NCBI GenBank assembly: GCA_001314865.1
Contig: LJZR01000020.1
Span: forward strand, 1 to 64,000
DNA from: Phormidesmis priestleyi Ana
GTDB lineage: Bacteria; Cyanobacteriota; Cyanobacteriia; Phormidesmidales; Phormidesmidaceae
Direction of reading: 5' to 3'
Length of the DNA stretch: 64,000 bases
Below the pieces are notes generated by a model. That model worked only from the letters and a program-made list of their open reading frames with translations. It had not been told where the DNA came from and made no database searches. Below, one piece after another: positions 22,381 to 31,192 of the stretch. Every line of letters begins with the position of its first letter. The first letter of the stretch is position 1. The translations under genes were made by a program, and so were the position numbers.

Positions 22381-22629
22381 GATCGCCGCGTGAAGGTTTT
22401 GACGACCTGTCGTTTTTGCCTAATTTACCTACTAGATTTGCCTAATGGCTTGCCTAATTGATAAAGTCTTAAATCCTAGACGGCCTTAAACTCTGGGCGA
22501 CCTTGGAAACCCTAGGTAACATTTATGGTCAAACCGCCAATGACCAAAGGTTAAATGATTAGGTGCGTCAGCCCACAATGGCAAAATTTATTCCTAGAAT
22601 TAAGAAAAATTAATGACACGGCTGCCCTT

Positions 22630-23004
22630 ATGGCTACAAACGTTGTAGAAAAGCAAGTGCTTGAACTGAGTAACAAAGTCGATACGCTCCATCAATTGTT
22701 AGAGCAACTAACAGAGCAGGTGAGCAGCATTGCTTTGATGCAAAGTCATTCGTCTGGCAATAGCTTGATGTCTGATGCACTTGCTAATGCGTCGCCTAGG
22801 GCTGTTCAGCGCTCGGTCGATTTAACGATGACACATAAAGACATTTTGAGCGACGAGCCCAACCGGTTAGAGGGCGATAAGTCGGGCTCGCCTCATAACC
22901 TGTCTCCTGAGATTCAAATTCAGCGGTTGACTGCGCAGCTAACGGCTGCCTATAACCGGATGGCCGCTTTAGAAGAGCAGATTTTAGCCTGTCGGTTTCA
23001 GTAA
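22630..23004 (+). CDS. Hypothetical coiled-coil protein
   Basis: A 124-aa polar protein with two helical segments, KQVLELSNKVDTLHQLLEQL (about residues 8-27) and EIQIQRLTAQLTAAYNRMAA (about 93-112), separated by a Ser/Asn-rich linker. I do not recognise a family. The ATG at 22630 is preferred because the heptad pattern starts right after it; an in-frame ATG at 22555 would add 25 residues without obvious structure. It stands alone between petE and the CobT-like gene. Confidence 0.6.
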   Translation: MATNVVEKQVLELSNKVDTLHQLLEQLTEQVSSIALMQSHSSGNSLMSDALANASPRAVQRSVDLTMTHKDILSDEPNRLEGDKSGSPHNLSPEIQIQRLTAQLTAAYNRMAALEEQILACRFQ

Positions 23005-23026
23005 AGACCGTTCAGCAAAGCTTGTT

Positions 23027-23057
23027 CAGCAAAGCCTCTTCACTAAAGGCTTTGCTG
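23027..23057. terminator. Hairpin between convergent genes
   Basis: CAGCAAAGCCT pairs perfectly with AGGCTTTGCTG (11 bp, 9-nt loop). It lies between the ends of the coiled-coil gene (+) and the CobT-like gene (-). There is no clean T-run, so its efficiency is uncertain. Confidence 0.5.
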
Positions 23058-23109
23058 TAGTGCAATGCTGTGAAATTAGCAAGACTGTAGAAAGACTGCG
23101 GAATTGAAA

Positions 23110-24288
23110 TTACAGCGCGTATTTTAGCTCTGATTCTACTGCGTGCCTTAGTTGCGATCCGTTCCATCCTTTGTACAGATGAGCGGCGATCGCGCATCCG
23201 CCTGCCCCCATACCTTCTTTTACAAAGCCGCGTTCGTAAGCCCGTAGCTGAAAGTAGCGCGACTGGCTAAAGTTTATTTCGCTGGCAATATAGGTTGCGC
23301 CGATATCACGGGCGATCGCACTCGTATCGGCAGTCGCATCTTCTATGACCCACCGGGTAGTACCGACGACGACCTGTTCAGGATTCCAAGTCAGTTTACT
23401 GTCAGCATAAGCTGGCGTGGTTGGCGGGGTACAGAGGGCTTGGGCAATTTTGTAAACTGCTAGCATTTGAGCGCCCCCAGCTAGTAGCACGCCGACCTGT
23501 TGGCTCGCTGCAATTGTCATACCCGCTGCCACTATTTGCATCGGGTCGCCTAGCTGTGCAATCACCTGCAAAGGCTCGTTTTTGCCTGACAGACGATAGT
23601 GGCTGTCCTGCTGCTGCCAGCGCCTCAACCCTTGTCTCACGATGGCCTGCTTTTGGCAGTGATTGCTGTGCTGATGACTGCTGCTCATACGCCCGGCGAC
23701 GTCATAGCCGAGGGCGGTAAGCACTGCCTGCGCAGTCGTTGTACCACCGACGACACATTCACCCACTATCAAGTAGCTACTTTTGCATTGCATGGCTAAC
23801 TGATGCCCCCATCGCAGCCCGCTTTCTAGCAGTGCTGTCACCTGCGCCAGCGACATGGCTTGTTTGTGATGGATAGCTTTGGCTATCACAGGATGCATGA
23901 GGCGGTTGTCAGTACCGTCAGGAAGTGGGGTATGTTCCGCCTTGAGTCGATCCGGTAGGCCAGTACTAAATAGGCGAAAAGGAATGGCCTGCTGCGTCAG
24001 GATAGCCCGAGAGATAATTGCTGGGGAGACGCCCGCCCTTAACGGCGGTAGCCGGTGAGTTAGTTGATGAGTTAACCCTTGACTGAAAGGGTAATAATCT
24101 GGTTTGGCTGCAAGCAGCTCAGCATCTGCAAGTGCAGTGTATTGACGAGCCTGGGTGGTCATACCCGCAGCTGAGATATCGGGTATTAGGCCTGTTTCGG
24201 TAAAGCTGAGAATGCAGGCAAAGAGCGGTCTTTTGCCGCGGTGCCGATGGAGCCAGTCAGTGGGGTCTCCAGCGCAGATACGAATCAT
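23110..24288 (-). CDS. CobT-like phosphoribosyltransferase family protein (UPF0284)
   Basis: A 392-aa protein resembling nicotinate-nucleotide-dimethylbenzimidazole phosphoribosyltransferase (CobT), the enzyme that activates the lower base of cobalamin. The conserved segments are LIVGECVVGGTTTAQAVLTA (about residues 172-191), PLQVIAQLGDPMQIVAAGM and VGVLLAGGAQMLAVYKIA. It corresponds to the UPF0284/TIGR00303 group, distinct from bacterial CobT proper. Cyanobacteria usually make pseudocobalamin with adenine as lower base, so the true substrate may differ. It is followed upstream by the DUF2232 gene, with 35 nt between, and the two are probably cotranscribed. Confidence 0.8.
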   Translation of the reverse strand: MIRICAGDPTDWLHRHRGKRPLFACILSFTETGLIPDISAAGMTTQARQYTALADAELLAAKPDYYPFSQGLTHQLTHRLPPLRAGVSPAIISRAILTQQAIPFRLFSTGLPDRLKAEHTPLPDGTDNRLMHPVIAKAIHHKQAMSLAQVTALLESGLRWGHQLAMQCKSSYLIVGECVVGGTTTAQAVLTALGYDVAGRMSSSHQHSNHCQKQAIVRQGLRRWQQQDSHYRLSGKNEPLQVIAQLGDPMQIVAAGMTIAASQQVGVLLAGGAQMLAVYKIAQALCTPPTTPAYADSKLTWNPEQVVVGTTRWVIEDATADTSAIARDIGATYIASEINFSQSRYFQLRAYERGFVKEGMGAGGCAIAAHLYKGWNGSQLRHAVESELKYAL

Positions 24289-24323
24289 GATGCACTTTTA
24301 TTCGTCACGCTTACTCATCGCTC

Positions 24324-25322
24324 TTATTCATCAATGAGTGCCTGTACCCAGCCAGGGGGCTCAGGCATGGCAACACCCAAGCGCTCTAACACCAGCCATG
24401 CGGCTAAATGCACCGTGAATAGATACACCATGCTAGAAAAGAGCACAGTGACCACAGCGGCAGCGGCGATCACGCCCATACTGGGCTCACCCAGCACGCC
24501 TAGGCCAATCCAGCCCCAGTTCGTGAGTAACCGCACGCCCCAGTCTATAAACTGGGTTATTTGAGCGATTAAATAGCCCCATAGGTCTTCGCCTGCGAGT
24601 AGGGATAGTAGCCAAAGTCGAAAGAAGGTGCCCAAGGCGACCAGGATGCCACCTGTGAAGATGGATAGTTCCCAACTCGCCCGCCGTCGCCATAAACAAC
24701 CTAGCTGCACGCCTAAAAATCCATACGGCATGACAAAAAAGATACTGCGAGTAGGGCCTAATAAAATGGTGAGCAGTAGCCCCGATACGACGGCTGCCAT
24801 CCAGGCAGAGCGTAGGTTCCACCGCAAATACACCAGTGCTATTGGCAGTGGAAATAAAATTCGCAGCAGTGGGCCAGGCGGAAAGTACATGTTGATCAGC
24901 CACATCAGGCTCGCTGCGCTGGCCAAAAAAGCGGTTTCTACCAGGGGTAGCGGGCCAATGGTAGATGGGTAGGAAAGCGATGAGGCAGGCGAGGGGTGTG
25001 TTGCTGCGATCGCCTCGTCGGAGTCTACTGCAGACTTTGACTGAGCAGGTGGAATGGGAAAAAGCTCAGCTGAGTGCTTTTTAGACGGCGGTGGATTTGA
25101 GTGGGGCGGTTTTCGGGAGCGGCGGGTTCTAACGTTGGCCGCTGTACTGCTTGGAATCCAATCGTCGGGAATCCAGTCGCCTGAATTCTGTAGGTCTGAA
25201 TCCTGTATGTCTGAATTCTGTGGGTCTGAATCCTGAATATCTAAATTCTGTGGGTCTGAATTCTGTGGGTCTGAATCCTGTGGGTCTGAATCCTGTGTAT
25301 GAGAAGGGTCAGGGAGGCTCAT
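24324..25322 (-). CDS. DUF2232 family membrane protein with repetitive N-terminal tail
   Basis: A 332-aa protein. Residues about 125-325 contain six or so membrane segments and match DUF2232 (LVETAFLASAASLMWLINMY, FPLPIALVYLRWNLRSAWM, WVQALIDE). The fold resembles S-components of ECF-type transporters, so a role in moving a small molecule is possible, interesting next to a CobT-like gene. Residues 1-50 are a hydrophilic tail made by a 15-nt expansion (DSDPQ/NSDPQ/NSDIQ units), and 50-120 is a polar linker. The start at 25322 lies 9 nt from the Crp-like stop. Confidence 0.8.
   Translation of the reverse strand: MSLPDPSHTQDSDPQDSDPQNSDPQNLDIQDSDPQNSDIQDSDLQNSGDWIPDDWIPSSTAANVRTRRSRKPPHSNPPPSKKHSAELFPIPPAQSKSAVDSDEAIAATHPSPASSLSYPSTIGPLPLVETAFLASAASLMWLINMYFPPGPLLRILFPLPIALVYLRWNLRSAWMAAVVSGLLLTILLGPTRSIFFVMPYGFLGVQLGCLWRRRASWELSIFTGGILVALGTFFRLWLLSLLAGEDLWGYLIAQITQFIDWGVRLLTNWGWIGLGVLGEPSMGVIAAAAVVTVLFSSMVYLFTVHLAAWLVLERLGVAMPEPPGWVQALIDE
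25180..25306. repeat. 15-nt tandem array encoding the DUF2232 protein tail
   Basis: About eight near-identical 15-mers (TCTGAATCCTGTGGG type) read on the minus strand as DSDPQ, NSDPQ and similar. The array makes up most of the N-terminal tail ahead of the membrane domain. Confidence 0.88.
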
Positions 25323-25331
25323 GGGTAAAAG

Positions 25332-26021
25332 CTATACCAGCAGATTTTCTAGCGCTTCTATGTCAATGATTTTGAGGATATCGCGATCGCGCTCAATCAA
25401 TCCTTTCTTCTCTAGCTTACTCAAAACCCGAGTGACCGTTTCACGCGCTAGCCCACTTAGCCCGCTCAGCTCTCGGTGCGGTAGGTTCGGAATTTCCATT
25501 CCCTGACCGGCTACTGTGCCTTGCCCATCGGCCAAAAACAGCAAAATATCAGCCACCCGAGATTGACTGTCTGACTCGCGCAGTCGCAGCCGCCGGTTTA
25601 CCTGACGTAGTCGCTTGGCCATTAAACGAGCCAAGTACAGCCCCGACAATGGCTCTGTATGTAGCAGTTTGACAAATTGCTGGGCGGGCATACTGCCAAT
25701 CACCGTAGGCACCAGTGTGATGACATCGGTAGAGCGAGGAATTTCTTCTAGCGGAGCCATTTCTCCAAAAATTTCTCCCTTCCCTAAAATATTAAGGGTC
25801 ACCTCTTTGCCATCTAAGTTATAAGTGCGTATTTTGACCCAACCTTCGAGAATGAAATAAACCGAATTACCCCAGTCATTCTCTAATAAAATGACCTGAT
25901 TTGCCGGGTGTCGGCGTGTAACTACTTGAGCGGCTGCCTGCTCGGCCGATTCAGGGGTCAGTTCCGAAAAAAAAGGAGTCATCCGAATCAGTTCGTTTTT
26001 GTCGAAAGGGCGAACGTCCAT
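25332..26021 (-). CDS. Crp/Fnr family transcription regulator
   Basis: A 229-aa regulator with an N-terminal cyclic-nucleotide-binding-like beta barrel (ANQVILLENDWGNSVYFILE, GEIFGEMAPLEEIPRSTDV) and a C-terminal winged helix (LSGLSGLARETVTRVLSKLE). It is not NtcA: the NtcA recognition helix is absent. The barrel lacks an obvious cAMP-type phosphate cassette with the R-S/T pair in canonical form (EIPRSTDV is only similar), so the ligand is open. The start is ATG at 26021 (MDVRPFDKNEL), as in relatives; an upstream ATG at 26105 would add 28 residues. It shares a divergent upstream region with the giant Hsp70-like gene. Confidence 0.85.
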   Translation of the reverse strand: MDVRPFDKNELIRMTPFFSELTPESAEQAAAQVVTRRHPANQVILLENDWGNSVYFILEGWVKIRTYNLDGKEVTLNILGKGEIFGEMAPLEEIPRSTDVITLVPTVIGSMPAQQFVKLLHTEPLSGLYLARLMAKRLRQVNRRLRLRESDSQSRVADILLFLADGQGTVAGQGMEIPNLPHRELSGLSGLARETVTRVLSKLEKKGLIERDRDILKIIDIEALENLLV

Positions 26022-26458
26022 AGGCAAGCGATAAATGCTGGGGAAGCAAAGTAAAAGGCCGTCAATAATTAAAGACCTATTCCTAGGACTTTTACTAGCA
26101 GACAAATGAGTGAATTGGCCGTATGCTAGCTTCCGAACTTTAGCACCGAAGCAGTCTTCCCGAAGCAGTCTCCCCGAAGCAGCCGTCCCAACTCAATAAG
26201 CGGTATCACTCATAATCCATGATTATTCGTGCATTTAACTAAAAAAACGTGAGAATATTTTAGTTTTCCAATTGTTTGGTTTTCATACGCTTGAGTTCCG
26301 TGAGCTGTGCTTTTTAACGTCTACTATCTTAAACTTTGTGCATTTACTGTATGAGAGTACTTTATTAGGCAGGATCATTAGCTGTTCAATTGAAGACGTT
26401 TAATTAGGACTTTTAACGGCTAACCTATTTCATCGCTGACTACTAACAGGCATCCATT
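26022..26458. other. Divergent promoter region with 14-nt array
   Basis: About 430 nt between the Crp-like (-) and Hsp70-like (+) genes. It contains three 14-mers (CCGAAGCAGTCTTC type, 26146-26187) and an AT-rich half nearer the + gene. No small gene was recognised. Confidence 0.45.
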
Positions 26459-29400
26459 GTGACTTCCCAGAAGGATCAAATTCAATCGCTGATTGCTGAT
26501 ATTGAGGCTGCTCTAGGCTCAGAGAAGCCTCGAAAGCTTTGGGTAAGGGCCAGTGAGGCTGAGGCTCAACGGCAGACACTCGCTAGGGCTCAGGACTATT
26601 TAAGATCATTACAGCAGGTGTTTGATGCACCTGGGGGATGGGGCCCGGTAGACCCAAGTACAGGACAGGTGACAGGCACGGCGGCATCAGGCCCCGCTCC
26701 ATCGGGCACCACAGGTTCTTTCTCGGGACAGTTGGCTCAGCCGCCAGAGGCTTCGGGGGATTCGCCAGAGGATGTTTTGCAGGCTTTGCTCACTGAGATG
26801 ACGTTTTTACGTTCGAGTGCGCTAGAGCCGCTGAGGCTGGAGATGGATAGTCTGAGAGTAGAGCGTGATCGGCTAAAGCAAGAAATTGACATGCTCGCTC
26901 ATGAACGCAGCTCGCTGGCGATTTCTACGCAGGATTCAATGCCCAGCCAGGTGCCCGTTAGTGAGGATCAGCTCAACCAGTTTTTGGCGGCCCTGATGGA
27001 CCGCTTACAAGAAAGGCTTTCGGTGCAGGTGACCCAGACCTTGAACCAGCTAGAGAGCGACCATGCCGAGGCGGTTGCCAAGCTGTCGTCAGCCTCCTCG
27101 GATTCGGAGGTGCTTCAGCTGCGGCCTAGAGGTCAGCTAGAGGATAGTAGGCTTGCAGAAGTACGCGAGCTTCAGTCTCGTTCAGATCAGCTGTTGGTCA
27201 ATATTGAGTCTACGTTGCAGGGCATGTTTGAGACGCTGCAACGCAATATTGACAGCTATCAAGTTTCTTTGAACGAGGGCATTGAAAATATGCACAGTCT
27301 CGGTCGTCAGGGTGAGGTCATTGTGCGATCGCTCGTCGATCATTTGACTCAACAGCTCGGCCAAACTGTACCGCCAGAGCCCGCATTCTCTCAGCCCCGT
27401 TTGGTAGAGTCTGATAGCAACGCAATACCTGAGAGCCTTGAGAACCCTGCAAACTCGGACAGCGAAATAAATACGGTGACTTCGCTGGATGACATTTTGC
27501 CTGAGGGCTCCTATGAGCTTTATACGGCTGAGTTTGGAGCCGAGAGCGCCGCGGACAAAGGCGCTTATGCAGACGAGCCTTCACTGGTAGATGCGGCTGA
27601 TGCTGCAATGACTGCGCCAGAAGACTGTATTCGGGAAGATGGCACCATTGATTTAGATCTGCTGACGCTGGATATTGATCGAGATGATGAAAATGCTGAT
27701 CTGTCGCCAGATGAGGTAATGGTAGATGCTGCGATCGCCGATGCCGCGATCGCAGCCATTGAGGCGGAAGATCCTGAGATTGAAGCCAAGGTAGTGCCCA
27801 CTGCCGATGCTGCCTACCTGGCAGATTTGACAATAGATGACTTAACAGGTGACTTCACGGAAGATGACTTCACGGAAGATGACTTAGCGGAAGACGACCC
27901 CACAGCAGATGACTTAGCGGAAGACGACTTAGCGGAAGATAACTTATCGGGAATGAACGCCGATCAGCCACTGCCCGAAAGTGAGTCGCTAGATAGTTTA
28001 GAACCTGATTTTCAGTCCACTGTTGAGATTGATCGAGCCAATGCATTGCCCGCCCTAGACTTGCAAGCCGACGAGCTTAGTCTCTCAGATCAGGTCGCCA
28101 CGAATGAGGTATCAGAAGAAGCGGTATCAGAAGAAGTGGTATCAGAAGACGCCTTCAACCATGAGACATCAGACAATTCAGCCTCTGAAGATATCTCTGT
28201 AAATAACAGCTCTGCCGATAGCTTTGCAGATAATCGGGAGAATGTTGCCGCTGTGCTAGCCGCCGCTGCCCTAGGCGCAGCGGTAGCGAGTCGCACTGAG
28301 ACCAATGAACAGGCTGAGGCGTCGCCAATATCGGATGTCCCTGAAGGCGACACTTTAGACCAAAACGATTCGGACGAGGCAGTAATCAGTGACACAATGC
28401 CAGATGATTTGGCAGCAGAGTTAGACGCAAACAACCAAACGGCAGCGCAGATCGCAACAGCATCTGCGCTCACCGGACAAAGTGCGTTTTCTCCAGATGC
28501 AAGTTTGGCCTCAGATTTAGAAGAAGATATCGTTTCTGACGCCGACGAGCCGTTGCCCGAAAGACTCACCGAAGGGTCTGAGCCCTTAGAGTCTGCCGCT
28601 ATCCCAGATGCGCCCGATGTGTTTGCCGATTTGTCTGCTGATGTGTCTGCTGATGCGTCTGTAGGTGAGGCAGCGGCTGACAACTTATCTGGTGACGAGC
28701 CATTCAACGAGCCATCCGACGAGCCATCCGACGAGCCATCCGACGAGCCATCCGACGAGCCATCCAACGAGCCATCCGACGAGCCCTTTGAGGTATCTCT
28801 ACTAGATTTAGAAGAAGATAACGACGATTCAGACGGTTCGTTGTCGGACGGTTTGTTGCCGACAAACGCAGGCGCTAACGCTTCGGCTGATATTTTGGCT
28901 GAGGCAGCCCTGCTATCTGAAGAAGACCTTTGGGCAGATGCACCGGAGGAGATGACAGATGAAGCGTCATCCTACAGGGAAAGCATCGACAATTGGCCCG
29001 AGGAAAGTTCGTCAGACCGTGGCTTATCAAACTATGGCTTATCAAACCATGGCCTAACGGTAGCGCCGCCGCTAGACTTTGACGACGATCTGGAATTCTA
29101 TACTGCTAGAACGGAAATTTCTGAGCAAAATGGTGAATTAAATGGCGAATTGATAGAGTCGCTATCGGCAGAGGCGCTTGAAGATGCGACAGCTGATGGC
29201 TCGGTAGAAGTCGCTGCCGATGACGCGTTTACTGATATGCAGGCCTCGGCGGCTGCGGTAAGGTTGCCTGATTTGCCTGTGATGCCGCCCCTGTCCGAAA
29301 TGCAAGCGCCATCTGCTGTTGATGCGGCTGCCGCTGATGACGGTGCTGAATTGCTCAACGGCAATGAGGGTAATGAGAGCAATGAAGGCGATGAGGACGA

Positions 29401-31192
29401 TGATGATCCGACGGGTGGTCAGCCTGCGGCTTGGTTCTTAGGCCTTGATATTGGAACTAGCGGGCTCTCTGCTGTGTTGATGAATCAGCTAGGCGATCAA
29501 GTCTATCCGCTGTGCTGGAATATACCAGGCGACGATGAGGCTGATCGGTTTCGGTTACCGGCTGTTTTACAAATGGCCGAGCAACCTGGTGTAGAAGTGG
29601 GCTCGGCGAGTACTGTGGGTCCTGTGGTTTTGCAGCAGGGCGCCCACTTACTGCGTACCCTTAAGCCACTGTTAAAAGTGGGCATTCCGCGTAGCACAGG
29701 CGAGCCTTGGATTCAGTGGTCTGACTATCAGACCATTCCGCTGCAAACGTTGCAGACAGCACTCACAAGCCTGCTGAAGACGATGAGTGTCAAGGACGAC
29801 CAGATGCTGTTTTGTCAGGCGGTGGGACTGAGTGAGAGGGCCTTGCGTCAAGCGCTGAGCGACTTGAAAGGCGTGATTGTGGGCTATCCTTACAACTGGC
29901 CAGATACCTACAGCTTTAATATTCGAGAGGCGCTGCTGTCAGCGGGGATTGTGTCTCAGCCTGAGCAGGTGTTTTTTGTCGAGGAAGCGATCGCGGCTCT
30001 CCTATCCGCGCTGCCCGATCCTAAAACAGCGAGCGAAGCGCTAGACAGCCAGCAGCCTGGGCTTTACAACTGCAATTGGGAAGGCGGCACGATTGTGATT
30101 AGCGCCGGGGTAACGCTGACGGAATCGGCGATTGTAGACTTACCTAAATCGCTCGATCAGCTCATTTATCGTGACTTTGCGCTGCGTAGCTTTACCTATG
30201 CAGGCGATAGCCTAGATCAGGACATTATTTGCCAATTGCTGCATCCTTCGGCACAGGCGCAGATAGCCGCAAATGGAAACAAAGAAAGTGCTTCAGCAGA
30301 GGGCGACTGGCAAAGCTTAGGGCTAGAGAAGCTTCAGCTGCCTCAGGCAGGCGAGGCTGACCGGGCTAAAAGACATCGGTTACGTCAGCGGCTAAACAGT
30401 ACGCCGCTAGGTCGATCTGCCATTGTTGCAGCGCGTCAGCTCAAGCTGGTGCTACAGGAAGAAGCTCAGGTGGATCTGAGCATGGGTAGTCATACCTGGG
30501 TAGTGAAGCGTAAGGATTTAGAAGCTAAGGTATTTTTGCCTTACATTCAGCGGATTAACCGGCAGGTCAATGGGCTGTTGAGTCAAAAGGGGCTCTCTGC
30601 GCAGGCGGTGAAGCAGGTGGTGTGTACGGGTGGGTCGGCTTCTTTGGGCGCGATCGCCCGCTGGCTGCGCCAAAAATTCCCCAATGCCACCATCATTCAA
30701 GACACTTATAGCGGCGAATATTCTAATAGCTGTAGCCGAGTTGCCTATGGCCTTGCTAACCTGTGCCACTATTTCCATGTGTTAGATACGCACCGTCATC
30801 AGTACAGCGACTACTTTTTGCTGCTAGAGCTGCTGCGCGTGCTGCCCGATCAGCCATTACCGGCAGGCGGAATTTTACACCTGCTAGAGCAGCGCGGGAT
30901 TAATACTCAGGCCTGTCAGGCACATATTTTGGCCTTGATTGAAGGGCATTTGCCGCCTGGATTAGTACCAACTTCAGGCGATCGCCCCCTTATTAGCGCT
31001 CAGTCTCCCGATATTGGAGCCTACCAGATGCTAGCGGAGCTCCCACTATTTAAAAAGCAGGGAGGGCAAATCTACATCGCTGACCAGCAGCAAGGCGAGC
31101 GCTTGCGGAATCATTTAGAAACACTTCTGGCCACTAAGTCCCAGCTATTGATGGAGCCACTCACTGCTGAGCTAGCCCCTGAGGTCGTGTAG
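26459..31192 (+). CDS. Giant acidic protein with C-terminal actin/Hsp70-like ATPase fold
   Basis: A 1577-aa protein starting with GTG. Residues 1-55 hold a short helical module (IQSLIADIEAALGSEKPRKL), 95-175 and 220-300 are coiled-coil, and about 310-985 are a very acidic, repeat-rich linker (DDFTEDDLAEDD, DEPSDEPSDEPS). From residue 991 an Hsp70/actin-like domain begins: WFLGLDIGTSGLSAVLMNQ (phosphate 1 loop), GVIVGYPYNWPDTYSFN near 1137, and VVCTGGSASLGAIARWLRQ near 1388 (adenosine loop). It is not DnaK: the peptide-binding domain is absent. The role is unknown; a cytoskeletal or chaperone-like scaffold is possible. It is monocistronic. Confidence 0.72.
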   Translation: MTSQKDQIQSLIADIEAALGSEKPRKLWVRASEAEAQRQTLARAQDYLRSLQQVFDAPGGWGPVDPSTGQVTGTAASGPAPSGTTGSFSGQLAQPPEASGDSPEDVLQALLTEMTFLRSSALEPLRLEMDSLRVERDRLKQEIDMLAHERSSLAISTQDSMPSQVPVSEDQLNQFLAALMDRLQERLSVQVTQTLNQLESDHAEAVAKLSSASSDSEVLQLRPRGQLEDSRLAEVRELQSRSDQLLVNIESTLQGMFETLQRNIDSYQVSLNEGIENMHSLGRQGEVIVRSLVDHLTQQLGQTVPPEPAFSQPRLVESDSNAIPESLENPANSDSEINTVTSLDDILPEGSYELYTAEFGAESAADKGAYADEPSLVDAADAAMTAPEDCIREDGTIDLDLLTLDIDRDDENADLSPDEVMVDAAIADAAIAAIEAEDPEIEAKVVPTADAAYLADLTIDDLTGDFTEDDFTEDDLAEDDPTADDLAEDDLAEDNLSGMNADQPLPESESLDSLEPDFQSTVEIDRANALPALDLQADELSLSDQVATNEVSEEAVSEEVVSEDAFNHETSDNSASEDISVNNSSADSFADNRENVAAVLAAAALGAAVASRTETNEQAEASPISDVPEGDTLDQNDSDEAVISDTMPDDLAAELDANNQTAAQIATASALTGQSAFSPDASLASDLEEDIVSDADEPLPERLTEGSEPLESAAIPDAPDVFADLSADVSADASVGEAAADNLSGDEPFNEPSDEPSDEPSDEPSDEPSNEPSDEPFEVSLLDLEEDNDDSDGSLSDGLLPTNAGANASADILAEAALLSEEDLWADAPEEMTDEASSYRESIDNWPEESSSDRGLSNYGLSNHGLTVAPPLDFDDDLEFYTARTEISEQNGELNGELIESLSAEALEDATADGSVEVAADDAFTDMQASAAAVRLPDLPVMPPLSEMQAPSAVDAAAADDGAELLNGNEGNESNEGDEDDDDPTGGQPAAWFLGLDIGTSGLSAVLMNQLGDQVYPLCWNIPGDDEADRFRLPAVLQMAEQPGVEVGSASTVGPVVLQQGAHLLRTLKPLLKVGIPRSTGEPWIQWSDYQTIPLQTLQTALTSLLKTMSVKDDQMLFCQAVGLSERALRQALSDLKGVIVGYPYNWPDTYSFNIREALLSAGIVSQPEQVFFVEEAIAALLSALPDPKTASEALDSQQPGLYNCNWEGGTIVISAGVTLTESAIVDLPKSLDQLIYRDFALRSFTYAGDSLDQDIICQLLHPSAQAQIAANGNKESASAEGDWQSLGLEKLQLPQAGEADRAKRHRLRQRLNSTPLGRSAIVAARQLKLVLQEEAQVDLSMGSHTWVVKRKDLEAKVFLPYIQRINRQVNGLLSQKGLSAQAVKQVVCTGGSASLGAIARWLRQKFPNATIIQDTYSGEYSNSCSRVAYGLANLCHYFHVLDTHRHQYSDYFLLLELLRVLPDQPLPAGGILHLLEQRGINTQACQAHILALIEGHLPPGLVPTSGDRPLISAQSPDIGAYQMLAELPLFKKQGGQIYIADQQQGERLRNHLETLLATKSQLLMEPLTAELAPEVV
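28700..28794. repeat. 12-nt tandem array encoding (DEPS)n
   Basis: About eight 12-mers of GACGAGCCATCC type. Copies are almost identical at third codon positions, so the expansion is recent. Confidence 0.9.

Follow-up and report, generated by a model that had tools for sequence, protein, structure and literature searches.

A gene in the window (the whole 64,000-nucleotide stretch of DNA analysed here) that joins a coiled coil, an acidic linker and an Hsp70-type nucleotide-binding domain belongs to a family with an Hsp70-type head in which, judging from comparison of relatives, one gene likely gives two forms by slippage. In the proposed mechanism, RNA polymerase would add or drop A residues on a linker run of nine to eleven adenines (A9-A11), yielding a short form, made up of coiled coil and linker, and a long one in which the nucleotide-binding domain follows. 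Such programmed slippage is likely the ancestral mode of expression, kept in many relatives, and the clade of the window gene is best read as having lost the run and as encoding the long form only. A previous sequence-only reading missed the relatives that have two open reading frames (ORFs) and a poly-A site, as these are not visible in this window.

Architecture, fold and family of the window protein

The ORF begins with a GTG codon and forms one fused frame with no A-run of 7 or more (Table 1); the gene is present as a single copy in its own genome. It is real rather than a chance open frame, since homologues of its C-terminal domain occur in 215 of the 390 sampled genomes of the class Cyanobacteriia. 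Both halves of the protein, N-terminal and ATPase, are under purifying selection (dN/dS 0.05-0.34 for each in close homologue pairs). A GTG start is found at the aligned N-terminus of 97 of 117 homologues, which makes it an unusually conserved non-ATG start.

Table 1. Positions in the window of the gene, its parts and its conserved neighbours
Feature	Position	Strand	Basis
CDS, 1577 aa, coiled coil - acidic linker - predicted Hsp70-type nucleotide-binding domain	26459..31192	+	ORF reading
N-terminal conserved helical/coiled-coil region, aa 1-303	26459..27367	+	alignment and AF2
Acidic low-complexity linker, aa 304-988	27368..29422	+	composition
Predicted C-terminal Hsp70-type nucleotide-binding domain with mostly helical C-terminal extension, aa 989-1577 (589 aa)	29423..31189	+	AF2, Foldseek
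Phosphate-1 loop DIGTSGLSAVLMNQ, from residue 997	29447..29488	+	motif and homologue alignment
Putative phosphate-2 position S1215	30101..30103	+	placed by AF2 hairpin; alignment
Adenosine motif CTGGSASLGAIARWL, from residue 1389	30623..30667	+	motif and homologue alignment
Divergent CRP-family transcription factor	25332..26105	-	top conserved neighbour, 82/110 loci
DUF2232 membrane protein	24324..25322	-	conserved neighbour, 68 loci
CobT-type phosphoribosyltransferase (TIGR00303)	23110..24288	-	conserved neighbour, 60 loci
Small 149-aa protein	22555..23004	+	conserved neighbour, 42 loci

The sequence-only reading had described a 1577-residue ORF with a coiled coil, a very acidic linker and two nucleotide-binding motifs. 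The ORF and both motifs are exact as it gave them, at the residues listed in Table 1, and the remaining features were borne out by the models and by composition. AF2 predicts long helices for residues 1-303 (pLDDT 72, pTM 0.31), and alignment of homologues places a conserved block, MHSLGRQGE, close to the end of this region. The linker that follows has a pI of 4.05, with 27.9% D+E, 1.9% K+R and only 2 lysines in 685 residues.

An AF2 model of the C-terminal domain built with 42 sequences (pLDDT 88.2, pTM 0.90) was compared with the PDB using Foldseek. Hsp70 nucleotide-binding domains (NBDs) ranked first, the best match being the DnaK NBD 7rax (E 1.1e-13, target-normalised TM 0.68), and target-normalised TM was highest for NBD-only chains. 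The domain is thus modelled as an Hsp70-type nucleotide-binding fold, which narrows the broader actin/Hsp70 superfamily assignment made before. We did not see an Hsp70 beta-sandwich substrate-binding domain and lid in the AF2 model, where residues 430-589 of the domain are mostly helical and conserved; the earlier statement that the protein has no substrate-binding domain agrees with this, as none is recognisable there.

The Hsp70-type phosphate-1 Asp/Gly and adenosine Gly-Gly motifs are present, and across 116 homologues D997, G999 and G1391 are invariant, while G1392 is found in 112, K1069 in 109 and E1175 in 108. G1217, two residues after the phosphate-2 position S1215, is likewise invariant. 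As hhalign gave a weak match between the homologue profile and DnaK (67 columns), this mapping of the ATP site rests on the AF2 model together with the motifs. Residue 1215, matched to Hsp70 D199 from a hairpin in the AF2 secondary structure rather than by superposition, is Ser in 52, Asn in 49 and Asp in 3 of the 116 homologues. Because the putative phosphate-2 Asp is replaced by Ser or Asn in 101 of 116, ATP binding seems likelier than ordinary hydrolysis for this domain, and its hydrolysis may be weak or absent. The name ATPase used in the sequence-only reading, which had taken loss of key ATP-binding residues in homologues as grounds for rejecting it, consequently survives in part: ATP binding is plausible with most ATP-site positions kept, but the presumed phosphate-2 Asp is mostly Ser or Asn.

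As had been suspected, no named family in Pfam, NCBIfam, PHROG or PADLOC covers the protein. Above the Pfam cut-off, the window protein matched nothing except a low-complexity repeat; Pfam HSP70 (PF00012) did not match it and was weak in 10 of 42 homologues. NCBIfam returned a single weak HscA match, PHROG and PADLOC returned zero matches, and a search of a viral fold library retrieved chiefly generic Hsp70s. We found no published report of this protein family or of the A-run site in the literature searched, which included few subscription papers. The searches therefore point to an uncharacterised cyanobacterial family. That the protein is a variant of an ordinary Hsp70 chaperone is improbable: the NBD fold would suit one, but the substrate-binding domain is absent, the putative phosphate-2 Asp is not conserved and the window protein lacks a Pfam HSP70 match.

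Other Hsp70-like genes were seen along the way. The same genome encodes a 577-aa single-domain Hsp70-like paralogue with a canonical DFGGGT motif (L217:1015-2748, minus strand, contig C118), and similar ORFs of ~530-570 aa recur as weak profile matches in most cyanobacteria searched. A fourth DnaK-like gene of this genome (L215, contig C45) may be disrupted or misassembled, as it carries an internal TAG and appears in two pieces.

Two-ORF relatives and the adenine run

When a homologue profile was run against 146 genomes of the phylum, matches were confined to the same class, with none among the rows listed from the small-genome family f2. Relatives include members of Leptolyngbya, Phormidesmis, Nodosilinea, Nostoc, Fischerella and Stenomitos. 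In L209 and L210 (family f31) the protein is compact, at 561-588 aa, with a helix motif, SLAEGLERMHNLGQQGEAKF, near the ATP-binding domain and no long acidic linker. The neighbourhood at 22555-26105 accompanies the gene in many cyanobacterial families (110 loci compared), and this synteny is common to fused and two-ORF loci. A CRP-site palindrome was not enriched in the divergent intergenic region relative to shuffles. The possibility that this locus or its neighbours correspond to CyDiv (All2320) was rejected, as all2320 adjoins glnB. Directly 3' of the gene lies a 124-aa ORF of the GLTT repeat family (PF01744; 31321-31695, plus strand).

In many lineages the gene consists of two ORFs, the first encoding the coiled coil and linker and the second, in another frame, the ATPase half, and these overlap or abut at an adenine run. 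The main survey set includes 55 two-ORF loci, and 45 of them have a sense run of A>=9 at the junction, where ~0.002 such runs per junction would be expected; the flanks hold 6 A/T runs of this length (>=9) in 609 kb. The run falls in the region that matches linker residues 304-988 of the window protein. Lysines are scarce in the linker (median 0.7% of residues), so that KKK is atypical of it. The 62 distinct sites comprise 45 runs of A10, 11 of A9 and 6 of A11, and the codon phase of the run is not fixed. The ATPase frame lies at -1 at 33 of these sites and at +1 at 9; 17 sites are in frame and 3 are unresolved.

The gene is a single ORF in the family of the window, in a family that we tentatively label Microcystis-like, and in Nostocales; the run is missing from the first two and from part of Nostocales. 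The distant families f3, f4, f9, f11 and f19 retain the two-ORF arrangement with its run. The state of the run changes just 11 times on a 113-row FastTree tree; some branches of this tree are long, so that the depth at which the run arose is uncertain, and with it the term ancestral. Four two-ORF loci (L046, L048, L171 and L203) have a junction without an A run and apparently reflect either genuine fission of the gene or loss of a slippage site.

We then analysed stop codons beside the run, using as controls positions inside the ATPase-coding region first and then positions in the linker. At two-ORF loci, the frame +1 to the ATPase frame reaches a stop at a median of 1 codon past the run, and within 6 codons in 95% of loci versus 26% of linker controls (p 9e-19). 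Fused loci that carry the run have this stop at a median of 2 codons (p 1e-4). The prompt stop is seen in all registers, even where the +1 frame is neither the default nor the ATPase frame. The other off-frame showed no significant stop proximity against linker controls (p 0.11), and our claim of a prompt stop is therefore limited to the +1 off-frame. All of these p-values are optimistic, because the loci share ancestry and the statistics ignore their phylogenetic non-independence. Where Nostocales loci have the run in frame, the nearby off-frame stop is mostly lost, and the slippage system may be decaying there. Finally, in 32 of 45 loci no in-frame ATG precedes the domain in the ATPase ORF, and 39 of 45 lack a start accompanied by a Shine-Dalgarno (SD)-like sequence.

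Predicted slippage and alternative explanations of the split

Programmed slippage should be marked by a stretch of at least 8-9 adenines at the junction, conserved in orthologues, and by a mixed direction of shift; the relatives display both. Mixed shift direction among orthologues is a criterion for transcriptional realignment (Antonov et al. 2013, PMC3711429), and is one of the grounds on which we favour transcriptional slippage over ribosomal frameshifting. Stable RNA structure downstream of the run was not enriched (mean z -0.4).

Programmed -1 ribosomal frameshifting on the A-run, in which the ribosome would produce the long form, is unlikely, although it is the best placed of the alternatives for the split. 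A -1 shift would suffice at 33 of the 42 resolved out-of-frame loci, the A10 run contains heptamers of the A_AAA_AAA/AAG type, E. coli dnaX provides a precedent (PMC3711429) and SD-like motifs occur upstream slightly more often than expected (24% vs 15%). However, nine loci need a +1 shift, 17 are in frame and yet keep the run, the run has no fixed codon phase and exceeds the length that a heptamer requires, while downstream structure is not enriched and the excess of SD-like motifs is slight. The loci thus depart from the expected signature of frameshifting, namely one direction, a fixed slippery phase and a stimulatory SD or structure.

A more doubtful alternative is phase variation, whereby slippage in DNA replication would switch the long form on and off within a population. 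Long homopolymers do mutate, and sister species (L041/L168 and L099/L136) do not share a register in this comparison of one genome per species. Nevertheless, length is held tightly at A9-A11, and at exactly A10 in 45 of 62 sites; out-of-frame sites outnumber in-frame ones by 42 to 17; the congeneric L044 and L151 share the same run and frame; and L041 and L168, though two bases apart at the run, are both out of frame. Simple gene fission, giving two proteins translated either independently or by translational coupling, has a slimmer chance again, as most run-bearing ATPase ORFs lack a usable start before the domain and fission leaves the run unexplained; it would best fit L046, L048, L171 and L203, whose separate ORFs without a run would need a start of their own. 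Lastly, it is scarcely credible that sequencing or assembly errors have split a normal fused gene, for while homopolymers are error-prone and L050, L053 and L104 have gaps, ambiguous bases or no clean ORFs, dozens of genomes, single-contig ones included, share this site, fused relatives without the run lack it and off-frame stops have been selected beside the run.

Transcriptional slippage is thus the reading we carry forward. The sequences show the architecture, the fold, the run with its conservation and mixed register, the promptly closed off-frame and purifying selection on both halves; we infer that slippage occurs in vivo and gives two stable products, that these co-assemble and that ATP switches the assembly. 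The N-terminal coiled coil would probably serve oligomerisation, with the long, acidic and disordered linker tethering the ATP-binding domain. As the coiled coil is common to both, short and long forms could co-assemble; the rate of slipping would then set the density of ATP-binding heads on an ATP-switched scaffold. Taken as a whole, the proposal that a register-independent slippage site, kept since early diversification of the Cyanobacteriia, sets the ratio of head-bearing to headless subunits of a coiled-coil scaffold, with selection keeping the run, the prompt off-frame stop maintained and the register free to drift between -1, +1 and in-frame, is a serious possibility that falls a little short of an even chance. 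The scaffold and co-assembly function, considered by itself and judged from the architecture, is more tentative, and the cytoskeletal or membrane-scaffold role suggested in the sequence-only reading is a possibility of the same speculative kind.

If true, this would be a case of dual expression by slippage in a protein-coding gene outside mobile elements that is conserved over many cyanobacterial families, with fused and run-free relatives as natural, built-in controls. Annotation probably presents many such genes as two unrelated hypothetical proteins or as a frameshifted pseudogene. The analysis also brings to attention an Hsp70-type protein that is widespread in cyanobacteria yet uncharacterised, and the length of the run in cDNA would offer a simple readout of slippage by cyanobacterial RNA polymerase.

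Comparison with known systems

With the DnaK/Hsp70 NBD, the window family shares the predicted fold and the phosphate-1, adenosine and other ATP-site loops. It differs in having no substrate-binding domain, in the change of the putative phosphate-2 Asp to Ser or Asn, and in the position of the NBD, which lies C-terminal of a coiled coil and bears a conserved C-terminal extension of ~130 residues; sequence similarity between the two is close to the detection limit. PilM and FtsA have the same actin-superfamily core, and Pfam PilM_2 matches 14 of 42 homologues weakly. However, the best Foldseek matches are Hsp70s, the genome has a separate PilM and the gene is not in a pilus operon. The family profile match plus pilus or division operon expected of a PilM/FtsA member was not found.

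The closest parallels to the proposed expression mechanism come from tssM and dnaX. Slippage has been measured on an out-of-frame run in Citrobacter rodentium tssM1, where it gives the long form, and on an in-frame run in Yersinia tssM3, where it gives the short form (PMC4256274). The A-run and two length variants are features shared with the family described here, in which both the out-of-frame and in-frame arrangements are seen. In contrast to the few tssM genes with such a site (PMC4256274), the run here spans many cyanobacterial families, and slippage is predicted rather than measured. In dnaX of Thermus and others, poly-A realignment on an A9/A10 run gives two products from one gene (PMC3711429). 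The same outcome is predicted for the A-run here, although the protein is unrelated to DnaX and the direction of the shift varies among the cyanobacterial orthologues.
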